From Pseudomonadota bacterium (GTDB lineage Bacteria; Pseudomonadota; Gammaproteobacteria; Acidiferrobacterales; Acidiferrobacteraceae), in NCBI GenBank assembly GCA_021819125.1, contig JAKARW010000014.1:1-40355 (forward strand): DNA of 40,355 nucleotides, given 5' to 3'. Made by a program: the position numbers and the translations under genes. Shown one piece after another: positions 16,393 to 22,589 of this stretch (position 1 is its first letter; every line of letters starts with the position of its first letter). The notes below the pieces were generated by a model. It was not told where the DNA came from and searched no databases. It saw only the letters and a list, made by a program, of their open reading frames with translations.

Positions 16393-16842
16393 TTAGTTGA
16401 TGGCGATCTTCTTCGGCTTCATCTCCTCGGCCTTTGGTAGCGTGAGCTCCAACACGCCATCCTTATAGTTTGCCGACACCTTCTTTTCGTCGATATGCGA
16501 CCCGAGACGCACGCTGCGCGACAGCTTGCCATAGCAGCGCTCCTCGCGGATCAGACGGTCACCCACCTTATCCTCGTGCTGACGCTTGACCTCGCCTGTA
16601 ACCGTCAATACGCCCTCGGCGAGCGTAATGTCGATATCCTCACGCTTCACGCCCGGCATGTCCATGCGGATGACGTACTCATTCTCGCGCTCGGTGACAT
16701 CCATGGCCGGCACCACTCCGCTTGCCATGCCGCCCTCACCCCTACGCCGCAGGGGGCGGAAAAAGCCCTCCAACAGATTGTCCAACTCATCATTTACAAG
16801 GGTCCATCCCGAATTCGTCGGGCTCGGCATCAAAGCTGACAT
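16393..16842 (-). CDS. Hsp20/alpha-crystallin small heat shock protein
   Basis: ATP-independent holdase chaperone that captures unfolding proteins. 149 residues. An N-terminal arm (residues 1-45) precedes the alpha-crystallin domain (about 48-142) with VTERENEYVIRMDMPGVKREDIDITLAEGVLTVTGE and the C-terminal signature ANYKDGVLELTLPKAE, ending in the I-x-I-type tail KKIAIN. The ATG at 16842 has a full AGGAGG eight bases upstream; a GTG three codons earlier falls inside that site and is rejected. A sigma-32-type promoter lies 60 to 87 bases upstream and a strong terminator follows, so it is a monocistronic heat-shock gene. Confidence 0.95.
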   Translation of the reverse strand: MSALMPSPTNSGWTLVNDELDNLLEGFFRPLRRRGEGGMASGVVPAMDVTERENEYVIRMDMPGVKREDIDITLAEGVLTVTGEVKRQHEDKVGDRLIREERCYGKLSRSVRLGSHIDEKKVSANYKDGVLELTLPKAEEMKPKKIAIN

Positions 16843-16901
16843 AATAATCACCTCCTGATCATTGCGGTTTGCGGGGAAGCACTCCCCCGTGACGGCTACT
16901 A

Positions 16902-16929
16902 ATTTGGGGTCCGCGCCGGGGTTTTCAAG
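16902..16929 (-). promoter_or_regulatory. sigma-32 (RpoH) heat-shock promoter of hsp20
   Basis: On the minus strand, CTTGAAA (16929-16923) is followed after 13 bases by CCCCAAAT (16909-16902). The RpoH consensus is CTTGAAA, 11-16 bases, CCCCATNT, so the -35 is perfect and the -10 differs at one position. It sits 60 bases upstream of the hsp20 start. Confidence 0.78.
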
Positions 16930-17300
16930 GGCTTTCTCGCAAGGCGTAAAGGCGCGCCGCGCTCGAGCGCGGGCTCATGCCATGGTCTTTTAAAAACCAC
17001 GGCCTCTCGACCTTTTTCCCACCCACCCCAAGCAGCGCCGTCACCGCAAAACACTTAGGACTGCGGCGGCGCGCGAGCGGCCCAGGCGCTCCCGGCCGGC
17101 CCTTTTTTGCCGCGCCTATACGGCCGACGCTCGCCAAAAACCGTGTTTTGCCCCTTAAGGGACGCCCGCGCTACTCACGGGCTCTTTTGATTTTTTTACG
17201 CACGCATTGCCTCGCTTAATACAAGCGTTTCGTTATATATTTAATTCCTGTGAAAACACGAGCGGCGATACCGGCAACGCTTTCCAAGAATGTCCTTTTG
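16930..17300. other. intergenic DNA between hsp20 and the CBS/H+-ATPase genes, upstream part
   Basis: About 370 bases without a supported gene. Two opposed short frames exist (around 16925-17137 and 16977-17219), but neither has a ribosome binding site or recognisable motif. The DNA becomes notably AT-rich after about 17180. A near-palindrome around TTTTAAAA occurs near 16987-16997, and a small hairpin (CGCTT/AAGCG) near 17213-17228. No function can be assigned. Confidence 0.5.
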
Positions 17301-17305
17301 TTTCA

Positions 17306-17319
17306 TTGAGATAAATCAA
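17306..17319. promoter_or_regulatory. FNR/Anr-like binding site
   Basis: TTGAGATAAATCAA matches the FNR/Anr consensus TTGAT-N4-ATCAA at nine of ten specified bases. It lies about 300 bases before the CBS gene start and 460 bases before the divergent hsp20 gene, within an AT-rich regulatory stretch. It suggests oxygen-responsive control of the downstream pair, but no regulator gene is present in the window to support it. Confidence 0.5.
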
Positions 17320-17340
17320 GTCATAACGGAGCTTTATTTG

Positions 17341-17384
17341 TTTCTATAGGCTGCGGTTTTTTTGTCTCCCGCTACCTATAGAAA
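17341..17384. repeat. 10-bp perfect inverted repeat with 24-base spacer
   Basis: TTTCTATAGG (17341-17350) and CCTATAGAAA (17375-17384) are exact reverse complements. The heptamer CCTATAG recurs at 17471-17477. The left arm begins 21 bases after the FNR-like box and contains TATAGG, a possible -10. The arrangement could be a two-site operator for a dimeric regulator or form a long-loop hairpin in a transcript. Confidence 0.5.
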
Positions 17385-17448
17385 ATCCTTATCTATCCCG
17401 ACGGTCGTTTCCTCCCCGCTTTGCGCCACACCGGTACGATAAACGTTC

Positions 17449-17477
17449 TTGCGGCCCGTGCGGGCCCGTCCTATAGT
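17449..17477 (+). promoter_or_regulatory. possible sigma-70 promoter for the CBS/H+-ATPase genes
   Basis: TTGCGG (17449-17454) and TATAGT (17472-17477) are separated by 17 bases. The -10 is a 5/6 match but the -35 only 3/6. It would give a leader of about 140 bases before the CBS gene. The -10 coincides with the third copy of the CCTATAG heptamer. Confidence 0.3.
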
Positions 17478-17622
17478 CCTAGGCCTTGATGCCACGCTGT
17501 GTTCAGGTTTTTGAAGATTTTCGTTCATGACTTACGATTCGACAATAATTAGGGGCTTGAGTTGACCAATATCGGGATACCCGGCTTCGAACAGTGCGCC
17601 GTTCCACCTACGGAGGTCCGTT

Positions 17623-18114
17623 ATGCTTGTTAAAGATGTCATGACCACAAAAATGAAGACCGTACGGCCCGATAGCGCGCTACGCGATGTAGCGACAATG
17701 CTCGGTTTCTATCACATCAGCGGGTTGCCGGTGGTGACCGAGGACGGGACCCTGGTCGGCGTCATATCGGAAAAAGACGTATTGCGGGCCTTGTACCCGA
17801 AGATCAACGAGGCCATCGAGCTGTCGGCATCCGTGAAGTTTGCCGACCTCGATCACGAGTTCAATGACGTCATGGATGCGCGGGTCTCGGAATTCATGAC
17901 GCCTCATGTCTTTACCGTCGGGCCAGACGAACAGATCCTGCGTGCGGTGGCAGTCCTGATCGCCCACAAGATCCGGCGTATCCCGGTGACCGTGAACCAT
18001 AAGTTGGTCGGGATACTCAGTATCGGCGACGTCCATAAGGCGGTCCTAAAGGAAACCTTCGACCACAAGCTCGGTCAGAGCGGAAAAAAACCGTCATTGA
18101 AGCCGCGGGCATAA
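17623..18114 (+). CDS. protein with two CBS domains
   Basis: A 163-residue stand-alone CBS-pair (Bateman module) protein. CBS pairs bind adenine nucleotides or similar ligands and regulate partners. The first domain spans about residues 1-60 (MLVKDVMTTKMKTVRPDSAL, HISGLPVVTEDGTLVGVISEKDVLR), the second about 85-145 (VSEFMTPHVFTVGPDEQILRA, IRRIPVTVNHKLVGILSIGDVHKAVL). No enzyme or membrane part is attached. GGAGG lies 8 bases before the ATG. It is 48 bases upstream of a P-type H+-ATPase on the same strand; a role as energy sensor for that pump is inference. An FNR-like site lies upstream. Confidence 0.92.
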   Translation: MLVKDVMTTKMKTVRPDSALRDVATMLGFYHISGLPVVTEDGTLVGVISEKDVLRALYPKINEAIELSASVKFADLDHEFNDVMDARVSEFMTPHVFTVGPDEQILRAVAVLIAHKIRRIPVTVNHKLVGILSIGDVHKAVLKETFDHKLGQSGKKPSLKPRA

Positions 18115-18162
18115 AATGGGGGCAGTGATCCGGACGACATCAATGGACACGAGGAGAATGTG

Positions 18163-20526
18163 ATGGGCGACGCAGCAAGCGAGCGCAAGACCGAGTATGT
18201 AATCAACACAAAGGGCCTCACCAGCGAAGAGGTGACGCGGCTATTGGCCGAGTACGGGCCGAACGTCATCGCCGAGGACAAGCCCAATCCGTACCGGCTG
18301 TTTTTTAAGAAACTCTGGGGGCCGGTGCCTTGGATGCTCGAGGCCACACTGGTCCTTGAGCTCATCATGGGCAATGACATCGAAGGCATGATTATCGGCT
18401 TTCTGCTGGTGTTCAACGCTATCCTAGGCTTCATGCACCAGCAGAAGGCGCAAACCGCCCTCAACATGCTCAGAACGCGCCTGCAGATCATGGCGCGCGT
18501 GCTGCGCGACGGCGCATGGAAGCAGGTGGCATCCTCCGAACTCGTGCCAGGCGACTATGTGCACCTGCGCGTCGGCGACTTTGCGCCGGCCGATCTTGTG
18601 ATTGCCGAGGGCCAGGTGCTGGTCGATCAATCGGCGCTCACCGGGGAGTCGGTGCCGGTGGAGCGCGAGCCCGGGGAGCTTGTGTATTCGGGGTCGGTGC
18701 TGCGCCGCGGCGAGGCGAGCGGCACGGTGACCGCGACCGGCGCCAAGAGCTTCTTCGGAAAGACCGCGGAACTGATGCGCGGCGCCGGGAGCCGCAGCCA
18801 TGCCGAGGATCTTGTCATGTCCATCGTCCGCTATCTGCTGCTGATGGATGGCGCCTTGGTCATCGGCATCCTGATCTACGCGGCCTTCACCGGACTGCCG
18901 CTCTTGAAGGTGATGCCGTTTGCCCTCATTTTGCTCGTCGCCTCGGTACCGGTCGCACTTACCGCGACCTTCACGCTCACAAGCGCCGTGGCCTCGCTCG
19001 ATCTGTCCAGCAAGGGCGTGCTGCTCACGCGCCTTGCGGCGATCGAGGAATCAGCGGCCATGAACGAGCTTTGCAGCGACAAGACCGGGACGCTCACGCT
19101 AAACGAGCTCACGCTCTCGGGCATGCAGACGGCAGACGGCGTGGACGACAACGAGCTTCTGCTCATGGGCTCGCTTGCGAGCGATGAACGCACCCAAGAC
19201 CCCTTGGACAAGGCGATCCTGGCGCGGCTTGCCGAGACCGGTGTGCGGCCACCTGAAAAGACCGGCTTCATACCTTTCGACCCGGCCACCAAACGTTCCG
19301 AGGCGACCTTCCTGCGCGATGGCGAGACATGGCGCGCGGTCAAGGGCGCCCCGCATGTGGTGGCCAAGCTTGCCGGCGCCGACGGCCATTTCTGGGAAAC
19401 GGCGATCGCCGACCTTGCCGCAAGCGGCGCGCGCGTCCTGGGAGTGGCGGCCGGCCGGGATGGGGCGCTCACATTCAAGGGGCTGATTGCGCTGGCTGAT
19501 CCCCCGCGTCCCGAGGCCCGCGGGATCATATCGGAGCTCCGCCATCTGGGTGTTCGGGTGCGCATGGTGACCGGCGACAGCATGGCGACCGCGCGGGTCG
19601 TGGCTGCGGAACTTGGCATGGAGGGGGTGATCATCGGCGGCCGCGACGAAATCGCCAAGGGCGAGATCTGCGACATCTACGCCGGCGTCTATCCAGAGGA
19701 CAAGTTCCGCCTGGTGCAGACCTTCCAGAATATCGGACACACGGTGGGGATGACCGGCGACGGGGTCAACGATGCGCCGGCACTGAAACAGGCCGAGGTC
19801 GGGATCGCGGTATCGAGCGCTACGGACGTCGCCAAGGCGGCCGCGAGCATGGTGCTGACCGAATCGGGCCTCAAAGGGGTCGTGGAGGCGGTCAAGACCG
19901 GTCGTCGCGTCTATCAGCGGCTTTTGACATATACCCTAAACAAGATCGTGAAGACCATACAAGTGGCGATCTTCCTCGGTCTTGGACTTATCGTATTCCG
20001 GCACTTCGTGGTGACACCGCTGCTCGTGCTCTTGCTGCTGTTTGCAAACGACTTCGTGACGATGTCGATTGCCAACGACAACGTCCGGGTGTCACGCGAG
20101 CCTGACATCTGGAACGTGCGCGTACTCATCAAGACATCGCTTATCATCGCCGCTGCGTGGCTTGTCTACATCTTCGCGGTGTTTGGCGTGGGTAAGGACG
20201 TCATGGATCTGCCGATCCCCGAAGTGCGGACCTTGAGCTTCCTTGGTCTTGTGTATTCGGGCCTGTCGAACGTGCTCTTGGTGCGTGAGCGTTCGTATAT
20301 GTGGTCCTCGCGCCCCGGCACGTATTTGCTGATGGCGATCGTAGGCGATGTCATCATGGTCTCCCTGCTCGCGCACTTCGGGGTGTGGATGGCGCCTGTG
20401 ACGTGGTCGTCGATCGGCATACTGCTGCTGTTTACGATCCTCTTCGTGGCGCTGCTCGATCTCATAAAGGTGCCGTTACTGCGTTCCCCATCTTCCTCGC
20501 GCGCCGCCGAGACCAGCGCCGCTTGA
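18163..20526 (+). CDS. plasma-membrane type H+-translocating P-type ATPase (type IIIA)
   Basis: Inner-membrane P-type ATPase of 787 residues, predicted to export protons at the cost of ATP. Visible: actuator TGES at 160-163, phosphorylation site CSDKTGTLT with Asp306, KGAPH in the nucleotide domain, MVTGDSMATA, hinge MTGDGVNDAPAL near 530-541, and membrane segments on both sides. In the sixth transmembrane region FANDFVTMSIANDNV resembles the ILNDGTIMTI stretch of plant and yeast H+-ATPases, with Asp630 in the proton-acceptor position. The long C-terminal autoinhibitory tail of eukaryotic pumps is absent. The ATG at 18163 has GAGGAG six bases upstream. Such pumps are frequent in acidophiles. 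A terminator follows directly. Confidence 0.93.
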   Translation: MGDAASERKTEYVINTKGLTSEEVTRLLAEYGPNVIAEDKPNPYRLFFKKLWGPVPWMLEATLVLELIMGNDIEGMIIGFLLVFNAILGFMHQQKAQTALNMLRTRLQIMARVLRDGAWKQVASSELVPGDYVHLRVGDFAPADLVIAEGQVLVDQSALTGESVPVEREPGELVYSGSVLRRGEASGTVTATGAKSFFGKTAELMRGAGSRSHAEDLVMSIVRYLLLMDGALVIGILIYAAFTGLPLLKVMPFALILLVASVPVALTATFTLTSAVASLDLSSKGVLLTRLAAIEESAAMNELCSDKTGTLTLNELTLSGMQTADGVDDNELLLMGSLASDERTQDPLDKAILARLAETGVRPPEKTGFIPFDPATKRSEATFLRDGETWRAVKGAPHVVAKLAGADGHFWETAIADLAASGARVLGVAAGRDGALTFKGLIALADPPRPEARGIISELRHLGVRVRMVTGDSMATARVVAAELGMEGVIIGGRDEIAKGEICDIYAGVYPEDKFRLVQTFQNIGHTVGMTGDGVNDAPALKQAEVGIAVSSATDVAKAAASMVLTESGLKGVVEAVKTGRRVYQRLLTYTLNKIVKTIQVAIFLGLGLIVFRHFVVTPLLVLLLLFANDFVTMSIANDNVRVSREPDIWNVRVLIKTSLIIAAAWLVYIFAVFGVGKDVMDLPIPEVRTLSFLGLVYSGLSNVLLVRERSYMWSSRPGTYLLMAIVGDVIMVSLLAHFGVWMAPVTWSSIGILLLFTILFVALLDLIKVPLLRSPSSSRAAETSAA

Positions 20527-20640: not shown

Positions 20641-21984
20641 CTAGAGGATATAGCGGGCCAGATCCTCGTTTGCGGCGAGCGCCGACAGGTGGTGATCGAC
20701 ATAGGCCGCATCGATCGCCACGGCCACACCACTCTTGTCGGGGGCTTCGTAGGAGACGGTCTCGAGCAGCCGCTCCATGAGCGTATGCAGGCGGCGCGCG
20801 CCGATATTCTCGGTGCGTTCGTTCACCTGAAAGGCGAGCTCCGCGATGCGGCGCACGCCGTCGGTCCGGAAATCGAGGGTGAGGCCCTCGGTCGCGAGCA
20901 AGGCGGCATACTGTTCGGTGAGCGAGGCGTGGGTATCCTTCAGGATGCGCTCGAAGTCATCGGCGGTCAGGGCGTCTAATTCCACGCGGATCGGGAGGCG
21001 GCCCTGGAGTTCCGGGATGAGGTCGGACGGACGGGCAACATGAAAGGCCCCGGAGGCGATGAACAGGATATGGTCGGTGCGCACCATGCCGTACTTGGTG
21101 GATACCGTCGACCCCTCGATGAGCGGCAATAGATCCCTCTGGACGCCTTCCCGCGACACCTGCGCCCCCTGGTTTTCCGAGCGCCCCACAATCTTGTCGA
21201 TCTCGTCTATGAAGACAATGCCGTGCTGCTCGACGAGGTCGACGGCGCGCGCCTTCATGTCGTCTTCGTTTACGAGCCGCGCCGCCTCCTCTTCCGTCAA
21301 GAGTTTCATGGCCTCGCTGACCTTGAGGCGTCGTAGCTTGGTCTGCTTATTGCCAAGATTCTGAAACATCCCCTGCAGCTGGCTTGTCATCTCTTCCATG
21401 CCCGGCGGCGCGAAGATCTCGATCCCCGAGGGCCCGGCGCGTAGCTCGACTTCGATCTCGGTGTCGTCGAGCTCGCCCATGCGCAAGCGTTGGCGAAACC
21501 GCTGGCGCGCGGCGCCGCCCTCGTGCTCGGTGCTTGAACGCGTAAGCGAGTAGCTACTCTCGCGGGTCGGCGGGATCAGGGCATCAAGCACCCGCTCCTC
21601 GGCGGCATCCTCGGCCTTGGCGCGTACCCGGTCCATTTCCTCCGAACGCATCATCTTGACTGCGATCTCCACGAGATCGCGCACGATGGAATCGACATCG
21701 CGCCCGACGTAACCGACTTCTGTGAATTTGGTCGCCTCCACCTTCAAAAACGGCGCGTGCGCGAGCCGCGCGAGCCTGCGGGCGATCTCGGTCTTGCCGC
21801 AGCCGGTCGGGCCGATCATGAGGATATTCTTCGGGGTAATCTCCATGCGCAGATCGGCATCCTGCACCTGCGCGCGCCGCCAACGATTACGCAGCGCAAT
21901 GGCCACCGCCCTCTTGGCCGCCCCCTGACCGACGATATGACGGTCGAGTTCCTGCACGATTTCCCGCGGCGTCATCTCCGACAT
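20641..21984 (-). CDS. hslU: HslU, ATPase subunit of the HslVU protease
   Basis: AAA+ unfoldase that feeds substrates into the HslV peptidase. 447 residues, usual length. Visible: [13 protein letters not shown], Walker A GPTGCGKT at 58-65, the GYVGRD pore loop at 91-96, the intermediate I-domain (about 110-240, including the [14 protein letters not shown] stretch), Walker B VFIDEID at 257-263, sensor regions, and the C-terminal ARYIL that docks into HslV. The ATG overlaps the hslV stop as TGATG. It is the last gene of its transcript and converges on the H+-ATPase terminator. Confidence 0.97.
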
Positions 21985-22526
21985 CAGGCGCGTCCCAGCT
22001 CTTCGATGGTAAGATTGTGATTCGTATAGAGGCAGATGTCGCCTGCTATGTGCAAGGCGCGCTCGACGATATCGCGCGCCCCGAGGTCGGTGTGGGCGAG
22101 CAGGGCGCGCGATGCCGCCTGCGCGTAGGGCCCACCCGATCCGATGGCAATCAGCCCATCCTCGGGCTCTATCACATCGCCGTTGCCGGTCAAGATGAGC
22201 GAGGCATGCTCGTCTGCCACCGCAAGGAGCGCCTCGAGACGGCGCAGCAGACGATCGGTGCGCCAGTCCTTGGCAAGCTCGACTGCGGCGCGGGTGAGAT
22301 GCCCCTGATGCTTCTCAAGCTTGGCCTCGAAGCGCTCAAACAGGGTAAATGCGTCCGCCGTGCCGCCCGCAAAACCCGCCAGTATCGTCTCCTTATAGAG
22401 CCGACGCACCTTACGCGCATTGGCCTTCATGATGGTTTGACCCATCGTGACCTGGCCATCGCCACCGATCGCAACGCGTCCGTTGCGGCGTACCGACAAA
22501 ATGGTTGTGCCGTGAAACTGCTCCAA
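21984..22526 (-). CDS. hslV: HslV, peptidase subunit of the HslVU protease
   Basis: Threonine peptidase forming the double hexameric core of HslVU. The start is taken as TTG at 22526, five bases after GGGAGG; this gives [14 protein letters not shown], matching HslV proteins with a short propeptide that is removed to expose catalytic Thr7. The upstream ATG codons in frame give an atypical 15-residue extension. 180 residues. Visible: [23 protein letters not shown] and the [22 protein letters not shown] block. It overlaps hslU by one base and follows the small Arg-rich gene by about 63 bases. Confidence 0.95.
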
Positions 22527-22589
22527 CGTCGCCTCCCGGGAAGGTGCCTTAAGCCTCATGTGGAGGCGCATCCCGCCAAAGGCAAGGGG

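Follow-up and report, generated by a model that had tools for sequence, protein, structure and literature searches.

An intergenic stretch of 172 nucleotides (positions 17306 to 17477) ahead of the genes for a CBS-domain protein and a P-type H+-ATPase holds an FNR-like box, an exact inverted repeat and three copies of the heptamer CCTATAG, and the question it raises is which of these control the pump and which are coincidences that catch the eye. An earlier note on this DNA considered such clustering unlikely to have arisen by chance and proposed that the pump is controlled by redox state together with a second, unknown regulator reading the repeat, naming conservation in close relatives and an FNR homologue in the genome as checks.

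The locus and its counterparts in related genomes

The window, by which we mean the whole stretch of 40,355 nt that was analysed, is contig C87 of a 2.15-Mb genome (99.7% complete; G000) that we infer to belong to the Acidiferrobacter group. Acidiferrobacter are described in the available part of PMC8889020 as facultatively anaerobic acidophiles. A small heat-shock protein, Hsp20, is encoded on the minus strand (16393 to 16851; PF00011, 84.2 bits against a cut-off of 20.8), divergent from a two-CBS-domain protein of 163 aa on the plus strand (17623 to 18114; PF00571 in 2 stretches, 99.6 bits against a cut-off of 24), and the latter is followed on the same strand by a P-type H+-ATPase of 788 aa (18160 to 20526). 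The pump scores 662.1 bits with TIGR01647, the model for plasma-membrane proton-efflux P-type ATPases, which is above that model's cut-off of 615.5. The hsp20-CBS intergenic region is 770 nt long, and the GC content of its stretch 17306-17477 is 48.8%, compared with 54 to 72% in the window's 500-nt pieces beyond base 1000. Convergent with the ATPase, at 20641-22571, lie HslU- and HslV-like genes (domains AAA_2 and Proteasome), which with hsp20 make up a small stress-gene island.

All three patterns are present as described, but how improbable they are depends on the stretch that is shuffled. When the 172-nt stretch was dinucleotide-shuffled 2000 times, three copies of CCTATAG arose in 0 shuffles, an FNR box with one mismatch or none in 3 and an exact inverted repeat of at least 10 bp, with a loop of at most 60, in 7; when the 770-nt region is shuffled instead, such a box appears in 23 and such a repeat in 107. 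Seven exact inverted repeats of this size occur within the 40-kb window. CCTATAG is found 3 times in the whole window, a count reached by 13 of 100 shuffles, and the shuffle figures flatter this motif because it was picked after seeing the sequence. Figures for patterns chosen by eye do not decide function, and we therefore turned to relatives.

In a search of 60 genomes for CBS orthologues, the window's own genome among them, 12 of the 13 same-genus relatives proved to have one, at 74-91% identity; G006 yielded only a paralogue at 59%. For footprinting, the upstream regions of 13 same-genus loci, own locus counted, were aligned; these 13 loci are not 13 independent trials, since the genomes are related. 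The CBS loci belong to genomes G000-G005 and G007-G013, the FNR genes discussed below to G000-G012, so that each set has one genome that the other lacks. Counts by alignment column, anchored on the box, use 10 of the 13 loci, L009, L010 and L012 being not alignable at the box. The ATPase follows the CBS gene in all 13 loci. In 12 of them hsp20 stands divergently on the other side, across a gap of 454-929 nt; in the remaining locus, L007, hsp20 was not found in the 1005 nt upstream that the contig contains, a longer stretch than any of those gaps.

The FNR-like box and its probable regulator

The box, TTGAGATAAATCAA (17306 to 17319, plus strand), has one mismatch to the FNR/Anr pattern TTGAT-N4-ATCAA, as the earlier note had stated. 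A match of this quality says little in this genome, in which TTGAY-N4-ATCAA with at most one mismatch is matched 97 times on the forward and 114 times on the reverse strand, against 10 and 9 for the same pattern read backwards, and most of 13 one-mismatch loci that were inspected lie inside an open reading frame. Since such matches are common, the weight of the argument rests on conservation rather than on the match itself.

Scored against TTGAY-N4-RTCAA, the site reaches 10/10 in 2 of the 13 same-genus loci, 9 in 7 (the window included), 8 in 2 and 7 in 2, which amounts to at least 9/10 in 9 loci and at least 8/10 in 11. When the 50-nt stretch of each locus is letter-shuffled 2000 times, at most 1 of the 13 loci shows a score of 9/10 or better, with a mean of 0.07. 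The degenerate copies (7-8 of 10) are those of L008, L011, L013 and L014. L003-L014 together contain 10 matches of at least 9/10 in 40,949 positions, 8 of them at the box site, and the boxes of L009 and L010 are perfect despite an identity to the window around the box that is near background (27% and 33%). The place of the box is nearly fixed as well, its end lying 147-152 nt before the -10 element of the proximal promoter (P3, below) in 12 of the 13 loci and 136 nt before it in the other. Judged by this footprinting, the FNR-like box is a real conserved site.

If the box is to be read by FNR, the genome should encode one. A PF13545 search returned two Crp/Fnr proteins over the cut-off in the window's own genome, and one of them (on contig C82) is an FNR homologue with the four expected cysteines, three in the motif CSNCSLREIC (CX2CX5C) and one distal, and with the recognition helix ETVSR, of the E..SR type. 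Helices of that type read TTGAT half-sites. The best NCBIfam model for this protein is Fnr (NF008365), at 222.8 bits and under the cut-off of 228, with the next best model at 96.6, and the cluster cysteines together with ETVSR are found in the own genome and in all 12 same-genus relatives searched. An exact box stands upstream of fnr in 12 of the 13 genomes, with none in the short thirteenth locus (L128), which suggests that fnr is autoregulated. In the window's genome this perfect box is 89 nt before the fnr start (G000:C82:43308, L140), and by eye a TATAGA follows soon after.

In the own genome as a whole the pattern TTGAYNNNNATCAA occurs without mismatch at 10 places, and at 8 of them a frame of at least 120 aa starts within 100 nt. 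Among the genes behind these exact boxes are hemN (547.9 bits against a cut-off of 325), a reductase of nrdD type (777.5 bits, cut-off 548) and a decarboxylase of the UbiD family (471 bits, cut-off 245), together with a ribonucleotide reductase alpha subunit whose gene runs off the end of its locus, which keeps its scores under the cut-offs. Both hemN and nrdD are classic FNR/Anr targets. The former also appears in the FnrL table of PMC2908626, in the part of that source available. Two identical exact boxes on another contig (G000:C24:11030 and 12606; L136, L137) lie near hemerythrin-like and glycine-cleavage-H-like proteins, named by eye, and near the second Crp/Fnr-family regulator; the hemerythrin-like protein has no NCBIfam match at 1e-20.

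Only two of four CBS loci scanned in sister genera, L015 and L019, have the CBS gene beside the ATPase in the divergent arrangement, and none of the four shows a box of at least 9/10 or a CCTATAG outward from the CBS start. Box-like matches before the ATPases of four sister-genus genomes were discarded, as they overlap the CBS start codon; that scan of ATPase upstream regions covered 12 of 17 loci, the five others (L175-L179) lacking the exact motif by which the start was located. Six paralogous H+-ATPases within the genus have no box. The own genome carries a second H+-ATPase, 62% identical (G000:C9:773-3037), likewise with no FNR box upstream. Given the lack of the box in sister genera and paralogues, the wiring seems confined, within the scope searched, to this one locus and to the genus.

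Promoter elements and the inverted repeat

The best conserved element of the whole region lies at its proximal end. The earlier note had placed a third CCTATAG at 17471 inside a candidate -10; the copy starts at 17470 (17470-17476), and it does lie within the -10 of what, by its conservation, is a likely promoter, P3 (TTGCGG-N17-TATAGT, 17449 to 17477, plus strand). Both CCTATAGTC and the TTG of the -35 are invariant in all 13 loci, as is the 17-bp distance between the hexamers, which is within the 16-18 bp of sigma-70-family promoters. Its -35 is weak, with 3 of 6 consensus letters by the E. coli standard, and a consensus promoter scan reported no promoter in 16800-17700, P3 included. From P3, transcription is predicted to begin at about 17484, which leaves roughly 139 nt to the CBS start codon. 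The own genome has a single TTG-N18-CCTATAGTC, and across 14 genomes the pattern gives one match each in 10, with 8 of the 9 same-genus matches at the CBS locus; the matches elsewhere are in G006, which has no CBS orthologue, and in G021, which is outside the genus.

Which sigma factor would use P3 is a separate matter. The stress sigma factor RpoS favours a C just before the -10, and this C (CTATAGT) is invariant in 13/13 loci; RpoS is encoded in the genome, beside RpoD and RpoH, and scores 494 bits against a cut-off of 394. Use of P3 by RpoS would make the locus a stationary-phase stress unit with FNR added to it, and would be compatible with the explanation we favour below. The TTG -35 and the 17-bp spacing suit RpoD equally, however, and we consider such use of P3 by RpoS rather unlikely.

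Between the box and P3, column conservation picks out a second -10-like block, TG-T-TTCTATAGG (17339 to 17350, plus strand; P1), which encloses the left arm of the inverted repeat. TGnTnnTATA stands 22-25 bp after the box without any change in length in the 10 alignable loci, where the columns hold T in 10, G in 10 and T in 10, followed by T-A-T-A in 10, 8, 10 and 10. Among all 13 loci, TG is present in 11 and TATA, letter for letter and 25 nt after the box, in 8; TATA is not recognisable in L009, L010 and L012. The hexamer may be taken either as TTCTAT, 22 nt after the box, or as TATAGG, 25 nt after it, and the former, which is at the exact -41.5 register and preceded by TGn, is without the important A at position 2 in 13/13 loci. 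The predicted P1 start, about 17354-17357, would by arithmetic put the box centre at -41.5 to -44.5. Of the 23 E. coli promoters that FNR activates directly and whose starts are known, 19 have FNR centred at -41.5 +/- 4 (PMC3688515), a range into which the box-to-start spacing falls here, with the start being predicted and the TATA exact in 8/13 loci only. The left arm of the repeat may accordingly be read as a -10-like block at class II FNR spacing. In 6 of the 13 genomes (L002-L007) the predicted P1 start coincides with seven T after GG (17355-17363), although in L006 the run is preceded by GC. The run is reminiscent of upp and codBA, whose starts show UTP-dependent slippage.

A genuine FNR site at this place could mainly serve the divergent hsp20 instead, or it could repress rather than activate. 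As noted, hsp20 is the divergent neighbour in all but one of the loci, and between it and the box lies an AT-rich block like TTATATATTTAA (17230-17250, its end 56 nt before the box), recognisable in 10/13 loci, that perhaps belongs to the hsp20 promoter region; repression by FNR is known for E. coli nrdAB, for example (available text of PMC3688515). The conserved features, however, are on the CBS side, where both the distance from box to P3 and TGnTnnTATA are kept, while no promoter could be identified for hsp20, whose start is about 455 nt from the box. L007, moreover, retains a 9/10 box with no hsp20 in its 1005 nt upstream, which favours the CBS side as the target. We therefore regard a site devoted chiefly to hsp20, or to repression, as improbable, and continue with activation on the CBS side.

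The arms of the inverted repeat, TTTCTATAGG at 17341-17350 and CCTATAGAAA at 17375-17384, match exactly as reverse complements with 24 nt between them, just as the earlier note described, and the whole genome has a single match to TTTCTATAGG-N18..30-CCTATAGAAA. If a second dimeric regulator bound TTTCTATAGG-N24-CCTATAGAAA as its operator, or if the repeat encoded an RNA hairpin or attenuator, then its exact 10-bp arms, its inner GCGG/CCGC stem and a single-strand fold of -18.8 kcal/mol (z -6.3) would be readily explained, and partial arm matches in relatives (9/10 in L005, 8/10 in L008) could be taken as traces of the same structure. In the six most similar loci the true register also pairs 76.2% of cells, against 40-63% in six slid registers.

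The dyad is not conserved in the orthologous promoters, however, which contradicts such an operator or hairpin as a genus-wide element. The arms match in 10/10 positions in the window only, that is in 1 of 13 loci, with 3-9 of 10 in the other 12. Folds are ordinary in the other nine alignable loci (z between -1.1 and +0.9), and the non-alignable loci give z = -1.95 (L009), +0.53 (L010) and -2.51 (L012, unrelated GC-rich DNA). Covariation, computed on 6 of the 13 loci because the other 7 have a spacing shifted by a base or DNA that is not alignable, is not significant: shuffles reach the score in 64/500 and the paired share in 124/500. Rfam returned two matches only, far below the family thresholds, which we take as chance. 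A transcript from P1 could not form the hairpin in any case, because the left arm would be upstream of its start. With an exact repeat and a stable hairpin in the own genome only, and with weak covariation, the second regulator of the earlier note is unsupported; we rejected this reading, and hold an operator or hairpin here to be very improbable.

A simpler account is at hand. Because TATA is its own reverse complement, conserved TATA blocks often resemble a repeat. The right arm (17375 to 17384, plus strand) contains TATAGA (17377-17382), and at the corresponding position, 57-58 nt after the box, 7 of the 13 loci have TATAGA and 2 have CATAGA, with neither there in the other 4, so that the right arm is possibly another -10. 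The inverted repeat is then probably two promoter-like TATA boxes that match by chance in this genome only.

A two-promoter model for the proton pump

Taken together, we favour as the probable explanation that the operon has a regulatory region with at least two promoters, in which P1, a class II FNR promoter, adds pump at low oxygen, while P3 is independent of FNR and the repeat is a by-product. At low oxygen, FNR carrying its [4Fe-4S] cluster would bind the box at 17306-17319 and, with the box centre some 41.5-44.5 bp ahead of a start near 17354-17357, would help RNA polymerase to use TGT-TTCTATAGG. P3, with its start near 17484, would be driven by a sigma-70-family factor, and would be independent of FNR because the box would sit at about -171 relative to it. 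P3 would thus supply a baseline of pump, the CBS and ATPase genes presumably being co-transcribed, and P1 would add more as oxygen and respiratory proton export fall. The repeat would arise merely from two TATA-type elements whose letters agree in the own genome and in no other of the 13 loci.

Such wiring could make sense for a cell in acid. If respiration slows, the electron transport chain would no longer carry out the protons that leak in, and a pump run on ATP may then hold the internal pH; it is probable that the pump comes on as oxygen is exhausted. That part of the earlier proposal which concerns redox control of the CBS/proton-pump pair through FNR is supported in so far as the box is conserved at a near-fixed place, FNR is encoded and the pump passes its family model.

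Several known systems offer partial parallels. The class II FNR promoters of E. coli narG, dmsA and frdA likewise have a 14-bp box of the TTGAT-N4-ATCAA type, and a spacing to the -10 that the predicted one here resembles, with FNR centred at -41.5 in narG and dmsA and at -45.5 in frdABCD (PMC3688515, in the portion available). They differ in that the target here is a CBS protein with a P-type H+-ATPase rather than a respiratory operon, that the start here is predicted, and that a second conserved promoter lies about 130 bp downstream. A further parallel is the FixK/FixK2 regulon of alphaproteobacteria, FixK being without the iron-sulfur cluster of FNR. In the accessible part of PMC2908626, Hsp20 and a CBS-domain protein belong, by their table position between the headings DNR and FNR, to the predicted FixK list, and in B. 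diazoefficiens Hsp20 and CBS proteins are induced by micro-oxia (available text of PMC6515984). The P-type ATPase of that regulon, as far as these sources extend, is of a copper or heavy-metal type and not a proton pump.

Two other systems are more distant. Acidithiobacillus ferrooxidans is also an extreme acidophile, and its FNR drives E. coli PnarG and is unusually insensitive to O2, but it belongs to another class of acidophile, and the available text of PMC6659574 contains no FNR box, TTGAT or ATPase. The low-oxygen-activated (lxa) locus of Burkholderia cenocepacia, tied to oxygen limitation, includes a heat-shock protein along with six universal stress proteins; it is, however, a large locus, and the portion of PMC6127331 available mentions no CBS, ATPase or FNR. 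Among the literature matches listed, with subscription journals mostly outside their coverage, there was no paper on FNR control of a P-type proton pump, nor, among those listed for FNR together with Acidiferrobacter or a proton-efflux ATPase, any on this pump. The regulation is of a known kind, then, and its target is less usual.

A broader claim would be that FNR directly controls the proton pump in the extreme acidophiles of this genus, pH homeostasis shifting from respiratory export to the P-type H+-ATPase as oxygen falls, and that the lineage with the run of seven T (6/13 genomes) may add UTP-dependent slippage that ties the pump to nucleotide supply. We put this forward tentatively, as something we would sooner doubt than assert in its full form. 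What the locus does provide is a clear example of how a comparison of species tells genuine regulatory sites apart from a repeat that is striking but due to chance. If the FNR control is confirmed, a P-type proton pump would join an FNR regulon, and oxygen sensing would be linked to acid homeostasis in an acidophile, an organism in which lost respiration threatens the pH gradient.
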